Shown piece by piece: positions 6,817-10,662 of a stretch of DNA of 64,000 nt (the first letter of the stretch is position 1; each line of letters begins with the position of its first letter). The stretch covers positions 1 through 64,000 of the forward strand of contig PLME01000008.1 of NCBI GenBank assembly GCA_003142375.1, written 5' to 3'. Under the pieces are notes generated by a model. It was not told the DNA's origin, did no database searches, and was given only the letters and a program-made list of their open reading frames with translations. Source of the stretch: Dehalococcoidia bacterium. Lineage in GTDB: Bacteria; Chloroflexota; Dehalococcoidia; GIF9; UBA5629. The translations under genes and the position numbers were made by a program.

Positions 6817-7650
6817 CTAGCCCAAAATGACGTTGTCGATCAATCGCGGCTTGCCGAGTTTGACGGCCAGCGAGATGAGGACCCTGCCCCTTATGGCATT
6901 CACTTCCCGTAAGGTCTCGATGTCGGCGATACTGATATAGTCTATCTTGGCCGCAGGCACAGCGGTGATGAGCCTGGTCATGGCGTTCTTGATTAAAATG
7001 GCGTCCCGCTCACCCTTATCGTACATGTCCGAGGCCAGTTGCAAGGCCTTATGGAGCACAGGCGCTGACCGGCGTTCTTCAGGCGTCAAATAGATATTGC
7101 GGCTGCTCATGGCCAGCCCGTCCTTCTCCCTGATGGTCGGCGCCACGACTATCTCCAGGTTCATGTTGAGGTCCGAGACCATCTTCTCAATAACCAGCGC
7201 CTGCTGGGCGTCCTTCTGGCCGAAGTAGGCCCGGTTGGGTTGGACGATGTTGAAAAGCTTGTTGCAGACCGTGGTGACGCCCTGGAAGTGCGTGGGACGC
7301 GAGCGGCCTTCCAGCGTTTGAGTTATGCCCTTCACTTCCACCCAGGTGTCATAGCCCGCCGGATACATATCTTTGTCGCCGGGTATGAAAACGATATCCG
7401 CCCCGGCGCTTTCCAGCAGGGCAAGGTCGCGGTCGAGGTCCCTGGGATAGGCCTTGAAATCCTCGCTGGGGGCGAATTGTGTGGGGTTGACGAAGATGCT
7501 GACAACGGCTATGTGGTTTTCATTTTTAGCCAGTCTGACCAGCTCGAGATGCCCCTCGTGGAGGTAGCCCATGGTAGGCACGAAGCCCACGGAACCCTTG
7601 CATTTTCTGCGCAGGCCTTTCATTTCCTCTGTGGAATGGGCTGTTTGCAT
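6817..7650 (-). CDS. panC: Pantothenate synthetase (pantoate-beta-alanine ligase)
   Basis: Joins pantoate and beta-alanine with ATP in the last step of pantothenate synthesis. At 277 residues it is full length. It carries the nucleotidyltransferase HIGH-like motif MGYLHEGHL (27-35), the pantoate-binding region around FVNPTQF, the Q-x-x-G-x-K-D signature (YFGQKDAQQ) and the KMSKS-like MSSRN loop. It lies 10 bases after panB in the order panG-panD-panB-panC, so it is almost certainly in one operon with them. Confidence 0.96.
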   Translation of the reverse strand: MQTAHSTEEMKGLRRKCKGSVGFVPTMGYLHEGHLELVRLAKNENHIAVVSIFVNPTQFAPSEDFKAYPRDLDRDLALLESAGADIVFIPGDKDMYPAGYDTWVEVKGITQTLEGRSRPTHFQGVTTVCNKLFNIVQPNRAYFGQKDAQQALVIEKMVSDLNMNLEIVVAPTIREKDGLAMSSRNIYLTPEERRSAPVLHKALQLASDMYDKGERDAILIKNAMTRLITAVPAAKIDYISIADIETLREVNAIRGRVLISLAVKLGKPRLIDNVILG

Positions 7651-7660
7651 ACTTTAAAGC

Positions 7661-8485
7661 TCAAAGGCCCTTAAGCAGGCTCTCATCGATAGTCGAACCA
7701 TGCTCGGGACCCGGGAATGTCCCTGATTTAACCTCGCCTATATAGCCGGCTACGGCCGATTTAATATCGACGGCCAATTTGGCGTACTGCTTGGAATGTT
7801 TGGGCACGAAGTCGGTGAAAAGACCCAACATATCGTGGATTACCTGCACCTGGCCGTCGCAGTAGGGCCCGGCCCCTATGCCGATGGTGGGTATCTTCAG
7901 CCTGCTCGTGATCAGCTTCGCCAGTGGAGCGGGGACCAGTTCCAGCACCACGGCGAAGGCCCCGGCCTGCTCCAGAGCGAGAGCATCGTCCAGCAGTCTT
8001 TTGGCGGTGTCTGGGGTCTTGCCTTGCACGCGGTGGCCGCTCAACTGGTAGATGGACTGGGGGGTTAAGCCGATATGTCCCATTATGGGTATGCCGCTGT
8101 CGACGATACGTTTGACCGTGGGTGCAACCGTGACGCCGCCTTCGAGTTTGACGGCCTGACAGCCGGCTTCCTGCATGAAGCGTCCGGCGTTGCGAAGGGT
8201 TTCGGATTCGCCTAGCTGGTAGGTTAAGAATGGCATATCGCCGATGACCATGGCCTGGCTGGAGCCGCGCACCACTGCCTTGGTGTGGTGGAGCATATCC
8301 TCCATGGTGACGCGCAGGGTGGTCTCATAGCCCAGCACCACCATGCCCAGGGTGTCGCCAACCAGTATTAAGGGAACGCCGGCTTCATCGACGATTTTGG
8401 CGGTGGAGTAATCGTAGGCAGTGAGCATAACGATCTTCTCACCGTTCTGCTTCATCTCCTGGATTTTGGCGATGGTTACACGCAT
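7661..8485 (-). CDS. panB: 3-methyl-2-oxobutanoate hydroxymethyltransferase
   Basis: Transfers a hydroxymethyl group from methylenetetrahydrofolate to ketoisovalerate, giving ketopantoate. The 274-residue protein shows the TIM-barrel KPHMT pattern: MLTAYDYSTAKIVDEAG, the metal-binding VGDTLGMV, QAVKLEGG and the GIGAG loop near the C-terminus. ATG at 8485 is preferred to the GTG at 8488 because GGGAGG is six bases from it. It sits between panD and panC with short gaps. Confidence 0.96.
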   Translation of the reverse strand: MRVTIAKIQEMKQNGEKIVMLTAYDYSTAKIVDEAGVPLILVGDTLGMVVLGYETTLRVTMEDMLHHTKAVVRGSSQAMVIGDMPFLTYQLGESETLRNAGRFMQEAGCQAVKLEGGVTVAPTVKRIVDSGIPIMGHIGLTPQSIYQLSGHRVQGKTPDTAKRLLDDALALEQAGAFAVVLELVPAPLAKLITSRLKIPTIGIGAGPYCDGQVQVIHDMLGLFTDFVPKHSKQYAKLAVDIKSAVAGYIGEVKSGTFPGPEHGSTIDESLLKGL

Positions 8486-8501
8486 CACAGGCCTCCCAAT
8501 T

Positions 8502-8900
8502 CTATTTGGCTGAGATCAGATGGTCCATCCAGTCGTCGACGTTCTTAGTGGCCTTGATATGGTTGTCGGCGTCCACATAGACCAGCCTGGGTTTGACGTG
8601 GGAAGCCTCATCGGAGGGAACTTCATAGTAGGTTAAAATAATGACTACGTCGCCCTTGGAAGCCAGCCTGGCGGCGGCCCCGTTCAAACATATATCGCCG
8701 GAACCCGGTTGGCCCTCTATGGCATAGGTCCTGAACCTGGCCCCGTTGTTGACGTTCAATATCTCGACCCGCTCGTACGGTAGGATGTCGGCCGCCCTCA
8801 GCAGGTCGGTATCGATGGTTATGCTGCCTTCGTAGTCAATATTACAATCCGTCACCCTCGCCCTGTGTATCTTACTTTTGAGCATGGTTCTGGTTGACAT
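8502..8900 (-). CDS. panD: Aspartate 1-decarboxylase
   Basis: Makes beta-alanine from aspartate using a pyruvoyl group formed by self-cleavage. The Gly25-Ser26 processing site is intact in YEGSITID; Ser26 becomes the pyruvoyl residue. Other family marks are KIHRARVT (10-17) and NGAAARL. At 132 residues it is the usual length. It is followed 16 bases later by panB in the same operon. Confidence 0.96.
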
Positions 8901-8941: not shown

Positions 8942-9889
8942 TTAACGGGGTAAGTGGTAAAGAAAACCTGCGACCGGATTAGACTCCAGTTCTCCGTTCA
9001 ACGCGGTCCCGGATGATGTGTCTGACTGCAACAGCTCACGTATCTCCTCGGCGGTTTCCAGCCCGATATGCCCTTTGGTGAGAGCGATGGGGAGTGTTTT
9101 GAGGCCCAGCACGCGGTAGATCTCGAGCAGTTCGGGATGCTCCCGGCGCAGGGCGTTGATGTGTTTCTCAACGGTGCGGACATCCCCCCGGGCTATGGGG
9201 CCGGTGAGGCAGTCCGGTATGCCGACCCGCTCGATGTTATTGACCGTGCCTTTGAGCAGCGGGAGCAGCGCTTTAACGGCCTCATCCTGGGGTATGCCGA
9301 AGGACTGCCATAACTCGGCGGCGGTCTTCATGAGAGTTACCAGGTAGTTGGAAAGCGTGACGGCGGCGGCGTGATAAAGAACCTTGTCGCCGGGCTTGAG
9401 GGTGATAACGGTGCCTTTCATGGCGGTGGCCATCTGGCGGCCGGCGGCCATGGCCGGCTCATCGCCCTCCAGGGCAAAAGTGGAGCCGGAGATATTATGG
9501 ATGGCCTCCTCGATGCTGGCGAAGGTTTGAAGTGGATGCAGGCAGCAGGTGAAGGCGCCGTACTTGTGGGCTGATTCGAGGATCTCGGTGGAGTGCACGC
9601 CGCTGCAGTGGACTATTGTCTGCCCCTCGTGCCATTTCAGGCCTGAGGCCATATCTTCAATGATATCGTCGGGCGTAGTGATGAATACGATCGAGGCGTG
9701 GTCGGATACATCCTGCGGGCGGTAATAGACGGCGCAGCCCTGAACACGCGAGGACAGCCGCATAGAGGATGAAGGACTTCTGCTGTAGACGGCGGAGATA
9801 TGGTAGCCGCAGCGGTATAGTTCGCTGGCCAGCGCCGTGCCTGTTACTCCGGCGCCTATAAATCCTATTGTCGGTCTAGGCTCTACCAT
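8942..9889 (-). CDS. panG: Rossmann/DUF2520 reductase, likely ketopantoate reductase (PanG-like)
   Basis: A 315-residue NAD(P)-binding protein: the Rossmann glycine motif GFIGAGVTGTALA is at 9-21, followed by the helical DUF2520 domain with the HPLQTF motif. Francisella PanG, a ketopantoate reductase, belongs to this broad group. No panE is seen in the window while panD, panB and panC follow directly, so reduction of ketopantoate to pantoate is the likely job; that is inference from context. AAGGTGA precedes the ATG, and a leader with an intrinsic terminator lies just upstream (9911-10047). Confidence 0.8.
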   Translation of the reverse strand: MVEPRPTIGFIGAGVTGTALASELYRCGYHISAVYSRSPSSSMRLSSRVQGCAVYYRPQDVSDHASIVFITTPDDIIEDMASGLKWHEGQTIVHCSGVHSTEILESAHKYGAFTCCLHPLQTFASIEEAIHNISGSTFALEGDEPAMAAGRQMATAMKGTVITLKPGDKVLYHAAAVTLSNYLVTLMKTAAELWQSFGIPQDEAVKALLPLLKGTVNNIERVGIPDCLTGPIARGDVRTVEKHINALRREHPELLEIYRVLGLKTLPIALTKGHIGLETAEEIRELLQSDTSSGTALNGELESNPVAGFLYHLPR

Positions 9890-9910: not shown

Positions 9911-9940
9911 AAAAAACCTTCTCGGCAAGGCACGAGAAGG
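9911..9940 (-). terminator. Intrinsic terminator in the pan operon leader
   Basis: On the minus strand CCTTCTCG (9940-9933), an 8-base loop, then CGAGAAGG (9924-9917) and TTTTTT (9916-9911). It stands 22 bases before the panG start codon, so it acts either as a conditional terminator for the operon or as the end of a free small RNA. Confidence 0.85.
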
Positions 9941-10047
9941 TAAAGGTTAACTAACCCGTATAAACCGTCTCGGTCATCGCTGATCCAAGCGGACTTGTTA
10001 TTCAGTTGTAGGACTTCTGCCTCACCGCCACTCAGGGTCGATGGACA
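9911..10047 (-). ncRNA. Structured leader RNA upstream of the pan operon (riboswitch/attenuator candidate)
   Basis: A promoter (10054-10082) predicts transcription from about 10047. The RNA can close a three-part stem: 10043-10039 with 9979-9975 (CAUCG/CGAUG), 10035-10032 with 9983-9980 (CUGA/UCAG) and 10029-10025 with 9992-9988 (GGCGG/CCGCU). It ends in a hairpin plus six U (9940-9911). The segment CGAGACGG (9972-9965) can instead pair with the terminator's 5' arm CCUUCUCG, giving mutually exclusive structures. No known riboswitch motif (TPP, SAM, cobalamin, T-box) was recognised. A short frame beginning MTETVYTG (8 codons) could also act as a leader peptide. Confidence 0.6.
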
Positions 10048-10053
10048 ATTAAT

Positions 10054-10082
10054 ATGTTAGGCAATAATTTTGAATTTGTCAA
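10054..10082 (-). promoter_or_regulatory. Sigma70-type promoter of the pan leader
   Basis: Minus-strand -35 TTGACA (10082-10077, perfect) and -10 TAACAT (10059-10054) with a 17-base spacer. The predicted start of transcription is near 10047, about 158 bases before the panG ATG. Confidence 0.75.
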
Positions 10083-10143: not shown

Positions 10144-10662
10144 TTATAATTTCAGTTTTGGCCGGCAGCGTCCGCAGAAAAAGGGCTTCTTGATGTCGGT
10201 GTCGATGAGGCTGTTGGAGAAGTGCATGATGCAGATACCATCCTGGCAGTGTCCCATGCCTAAGGTATGCCCAAGCTCGTGGATGGCTTCCTTGAGGGCT
10301 CGTTCCGCCAGCAGTTGGGGGTCGGCCGGTAGGCCGTAGTTCTCCTGCCGCAGCAGGTTAAGGGAGATGACGGCTACCCCGCCCTCCTCACTGGCCTGGC
10401 CGAATACAAAGTTCAGCCCGCTCGTATACAAGTTAACGTCGGTGATGCCCAGCACCGTTACCCTGGCTTTGCGTGAATGTTTGAGCAGGTCGATGAAGGC
10501 GTCGGAAAGATATTGGTCCCGTTCGGGGTTGAAGGAGGATGAGGGGATGGGGAGTGGTTCATTGATCTTAAAGGGACAGCCGAAGGTGTTTTGAAGTCCC
10601 TGCTTGAGCTCCTGCAGGATAATGTCGCTTATCGTTCCTACAGGTTGAAGATCGATTTCCAT
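10144..10662 (-). CDS. amzA: Archaemetzincin family metalloprotease
   Basis: A 172-residue zinc peptidase of family M54. The full archaemetzincin signature is visible: HELGHTLGMGH at 128-138 (zinc ligands His128, His132, His138; catalytic Glu129), then Cys139, Cys144, Met146 in the Met-turn, and Cys163/Cys166 (CGRC) for a second structural zinc. The physiological substrate of this family is unknown. It starts eight bases after the THEP1-type NTPase stop, so they share a transcript. Archaemetzincins are mostly archaeal and patchy in bacteria. Confidence 0.92.
   Translation of the reverse strand: MEIDLQPVGTISDIILQELKQGLQNTFGCPFKINEPLPIPSSSFNPERDQYLSDAFIDLLKHSRKARVTVLGITDVNLYTSGLNFVFGQASEEGGVAVISLNLLRQENYGLPADPQLLAERALKEAIHELGHTLGMGHCQDGICIMHFSNSLIDTDIKKPFFCGRCRPKLKL

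Follow-up and report, generated by a model that had tools for sequence, protein, structure and literature searches.

A pan motif RNA with a predicted terminator/antiterminator switch ahead of a pantothenate operon in a Dehalococcoidia genome

The pan motif (Rfam RF01749) was described in 2010 by Weinberg et al., who, in the passage that presents it, report Chloroflexi among the phyla carrying it and name Bacillus subtilis as a carrier (PMC2864571). A transcriptome of Paenibacillus also lists it, in the 5′ UTR of a panB-panC operon (PMC5670726). Though the motif has been known since 2010, our literature search found neither an effector nor a validated ligand for it, and CoA is singled out in a review as a ligand conspicuously missing among those of riboswitches (PMC9971707).

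We analyzed a stretch of 64,000 nucleotides from a Dehalococcoidia bacterium (GCA_003142375.1, contig PLME01000008.1; hereafter, the window), in which a structured leader precedes a pantothenate operon. The features of the locus are as follows:

10054..10082, (-), sigma-70-type promoter: -35 TTGACA at 10082-10077, 17-nt spacer, -10 TAACAT at 10059-10054
9961..10046, (-), whole pan motif RNA (RF01749): full-length model match, 1-92 of 92
10019..10046, (-), pan hairpin P1: GUCCAUCG-A-CC / GG-CGGUG-A-GGC, bulged A at 10038 and 10022; from the RF01749 alignment and the MFE structure
9965..9992, (-), pan hairpin P2: CCGCUUGG-A-UCA / UGA-CCGAG-A-CGG, bulged A at 9984 and 9968; from the RF01749 alignment
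9933..9972, (-), predicted antiterminator alternative: CGAGACGG at 9972-9965 (P2 3′ strand) with CCUUCUCG at 9940-9933 (terminator 5′ arm)
9911..9941, (-), intrinsic terminator: stem of 8-9 bp, six U at 9916-9911
8942..9889, (-), first gene, putative ketopantoate reductase (PanG-type): Rossmann-like and DUF2520 (Pfam PF10727 and PF10728)
8502..8900, (-), panD, aspartate 1-decarboxylase (PF02261, TIGR00223)
7661..8488, (-), panB, ketopantoate hydroxymethyltransferase (PF02548, TIGR00222)
6817..7650, (-), panC, pantoate--beta-alanine ligase (PF02569, TIGR00018)

The promoter matches the consensus at 10 of 12 positions, and the leader is 137 nt long, from approximately 10047 to 9911 on the minus strand; the terminator arms, CCUUCUCG and CGAGAAGG (9924-9917), are separated by an 8-nt loop, and the end of the terminator lies 21 nt upstream of the ATG at 9889. 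The original prediction, made from the letters of the window, had read these elements correctly: the TTGACA-17-TAACAT promoter, the leader of about 137 nt, the terminator with six U, and the pairing of 9972-9965 with the terminator 5′ arm at seven of eight positions are all found where it placed them. Judged by sequence, promoter-like sites are conserved among related leaders, occurring in 36 of 41, where shuffles would lead one to expect about 3.8. The folding energy of the region 10082-9911 is −44.1 kcal/mol (z = −2.06), but once the terminator is removed, the energy of the leader does not stand out (z = −0.52); energy is weak evidence for a leader structure, and comparison was therefore needed. 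The PanG function of the first gene is putative and comes from the operon context because a PanE-family domain is also present elsewhere in the genome; in same-family relatives, every operon examined contains panG and then panD, panB and panC, to the extent that the contig covers it.

The original prediction recognized no known riboswitch class in the leader, and in this, it was mistaken: positions 10046-9961 of the minus strand match RF01749 with 35.7 bits (E = 8.3e-5, Rfam in E-value mode), the next-best match having E = 0.46, and the family matched is cis-regulatory, not one unrelated to regulation. The score falls 0.5 bit under the curated gathering cutoff of 36.2 bits, and an Rfam scan at the gathering threshold listed only tRNAs in the window and missed the motif. 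The window copy aligns full length with relatives that pass the cutoff; a copy from the same genus (G020) scores 37.4 bits, and the model finds a pan RNA in 22 of 30 same-family genomes, above the cutoff in 18 and with up to 54 bits. The window genome holds a single copy at E ≤ 0.001; among 14 control genomes, B. subtilis had a match above the cutoff, and being found by the same model is the likeness of its pan RNA to that of the window. With the motif as presented in the 2010 passage (PMC2864571), the window RNA shares the tandem hairpins, typical of most members, with two bulged A's in each, and the position ahead of a pantothenate operon; it differs in that its first gene is of the DUF2520 panG type and in that we describe a terminator and antiterminator, a mechanism that does not appear in that passage. 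The leader is real and functional-looking, and in all but half a bit of score, it is a member of a known orphan cis-regulatory family; the predicted switch mechanism is what is added to that family.

Support for the fold comes from a gapless alignment (A1) that comprises the arms of P1, P2 and the terminator, but not loops and linkers, from 37 related leaders. Position and sequence pattern guided the placement of its rows, six of which were reregistered by hand. Across the pan fold and the terminator, 97.7% of alignment cells are paired and 15 of 29 pairs show double changes, and none of 500 shuffles was as good on any measure. Eight of the 10 pairs of P1 covary, as does the terminator stem (helix 3), while P2 is nearly invariant and 99.7% paired. 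The placement of P1 partly demanded pairing and bulged A's, which biases its paired percentages upward; because row extraction also required an A in each bulged-A column, A1 provides no independent test of these columns. The two-hairpin fold, with the same bulged-A layout in P1 and P2, is both the MFE and the covarying structure.

We consider it probable that the pan motif RNA is a cis-acting attenuator controlling transcription of the panG-panD-panB-panC operon, most likely one of the OFF type in which a stabilized P2 lets the terminator form. Transcription would start adjoining P1, and P1 and P2 would be kept in their folded state, the simplest agent being an effector that is available at high pantothenate or CoA; the P2 3′ strand would then be sequestered, the downstream hairpin would form, and transcription would stop at about 9911. 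If nothing holds P2, CGAGACGG would instead pair with CCUUCUCG, and RNA polymerase would read into panG. In the nascent RNA of the window, the P2 fold (−30.0 kcal/mol) and the antiterminator fold (−29.6 kcal/mol) are nearly balanced, and a small stabilization could therefore tip the choice; the complete leader favors P2 with the terminator (−43.5 vs. −36.5 kcal/mol). The family match, the conserved two-hairpin fold, the terminator and the conserved complementarity are established by our analyses; we infer the sign of the switch, with the effector meaning OFF, and the binding of an effector to P1/P2. In OFF-type riboswitches that terminate transcription, one strand of the conserved domain also serves an antiterminator, and the latter is in competition with an intrinsic terminator. 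The window leader appears analogous, its expression platform being, by sequence alone, exclusive with the conserved fold as expected of a riboswitch; unlike for those systems, however, our literature search found no ligand for it, and the RNA should not be called a riboswitch.

The effector could be pantothenate, CoA, another intermediate or a dimeric protein. The genes found behind pan RNAs in other genomes bear on the choice (a DNA pattern scan of genome contigs was too loose and gave mostly chance matches). One pan RNA above the cutoff is followed by ecfA-ecfA-ecfT-ecfS-coaX, with an S component of PF12822 (L114, 400-5043), and at another locus, a P2-like element only stands ahead of ECF transporter ATPase and T genes, an S component and a type III pantothenate kinase (L123, 1438-5537); both sequences are Chloroflexi/Anaerolineales MAGs, and the arrangement is a predicted pantothenate uptake operon. 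Elsewhere, a type III pantothenate kinase (coaX) and then panG follow a sub-cutoff pan RNA with a well-kept P2 and an unclear P1 (L062), a pan RNA heads birA (L196), and a pan RNA near 1501-1592 on the minus strand of L211 precedes a gene for an SBF-family (bile acid:sodium symporter) transporter, which is a candidate for carrying pantoate or pantothenate; panC comes next. As genes for uptake and phosphorylation stand beside those for synthesis, the gene content favors pantothenate or a downstream compound of the CoA pathway over pantoate as the signal. A tentative reading, short of probable, is that the pan RNA is a metabolite riboswitch for pantothenate/CoA status, its mechanism shared by three phyla, with the P2 3′ strand doubling as an antiterminator in a phylum-specific register and the regulon extending from synthesis to uptake (ECF, SBF) and phosphorylation (CoaX).

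On the other hand, rather than being a riboswitch, the same RNA may be a leader that depends on a dimeric protein binding the tandem bulged-A hairpins. In the passage that describes the motif, such an effector was suggested from its simple, tandem structure (PMC2864571); the identical bulged-A layout of the two hairpins and the small size of the conserved core agree with this. The core, however, recurs in three phyla whose gene content differs, which would suit a direct metabolite sensor just as well; we regard the protein effector as possible, though short of probable.

Attenuation itself would be illusory if the terminator were constitutive, the leader did not switch and the complementarity were a by-product of a conserved terminator sequence. 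Within Chloroflexota, common ancestry is enough to account for the match. Among the relatives, 92.9% of cells can pair between the P2 3′ strand and the terminator 5′ arm, but neither P2 nor the arm varies much, and the pairing consequently does not covary there. For this reason, the comparison was widened to leaders from Bacillota and Desulfobacterota (group names are those of the named records through which the genomes were reached). In these, the terminator arms differ and the pairing register is shifted, with GACAGAGGG:CCUUCUGUC in L227 and GACGAAAGG:CCUUUCGUU in L225, but the complementarity is kept. Over 107 leaders, the mean binding of the P2 3′ strand is −9.98 kcal/mol to own arms, −9.03 kcal/mol to swapped arms and −6.34 kcal/mol to shuffled ones, and none of 5,000 permutations matched the own-versus-swapped difference, a test that takes no account of relatedness between leaders. 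Within groups, the counts were 31 of 5,000 in Bacillota and 129 of 5,000 in Desulfobacterota; in Chloroflexota, own arms were no better (4,626 of 5,000), the near invariance of both partners leaving the test without power. Arms that pair poorly occur in L054, L057 and L062. With own pairings still beating swapped ones across phyla despite the differing arms and registers, a nonswitching leader is improbable. The comparison supports mutual exclusion of P2 and the terminator as what would be a general property of terminator-type pan leaders, and the conserved register of the antiterminator makes a concrete mutational test possible. Of the original reading, a ligand-sensing or attenuation leader for pantothenate/CoA synthesis with mutually exclusive folds, the attenuation and the exclusive folds thus gain backing from three phyla, while a new class gives way to a known Rfam family.

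The original prediction had also drawn the leader as a ligand-binding domain closed by a three-part stem (CAUCG/CGAUG, CUGA/UCAG, GGCGG/CCGCU), which we consider very improbable: the strands are complementary in the window, but CAUCG/CGAUG pairs in only 70% of cells over 37 sequences and is broken in the other 30%, the P2 loop varies among relatives without compensation, and covariation over the tested stems lies below the shuffle mean. That test covered CAUCG/CGAUG and GGCGG/CCGCU, the short CUGA/UCAG element lying in the variable P1 loop; 83.0% of cells were paired, no measure exceeded shuffles, and the stem was rejected as a conserved fold, in the same relatives whose two-hairpin fold covaries. 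GGCGG/CCGCU appears conserved because both its strands are constrained by the pan hairpins, and it breaks without compensation when P1 changes (seven sequences). A related long-range pairing does show up in the window sequence once the antiterminator is forced, so the closing stem may exist for a short time while the leader of this species is antiterminated.

Some neighboring genes deserve mention in their own right. Immediately upstream of the window promoter and on the same strand lies a gene for a peptidase of family M54 (archaemetzincin-like; window 10144-10662). A pan RNA in L235 precedes a gene for an aldehyde ferredoxin oxidoreductase-like protein, and the second copy of one genome (L063) precedes a molybdopterin-oxidoreductase-like gene; both names were read from the sequence, and neither gene is explained by pantothenate synthesis. 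In about half of the pan operons of the family, a gene for a peptidase of family S58 (DmpA-like, PF03576), absent from the genome of the window, stands between the pan RNA and panG, for example at 320-1288 of L025, with equivalents in L026-L032, L034, L037 and L040; the peptidase is possibly a source of beta-alanine.
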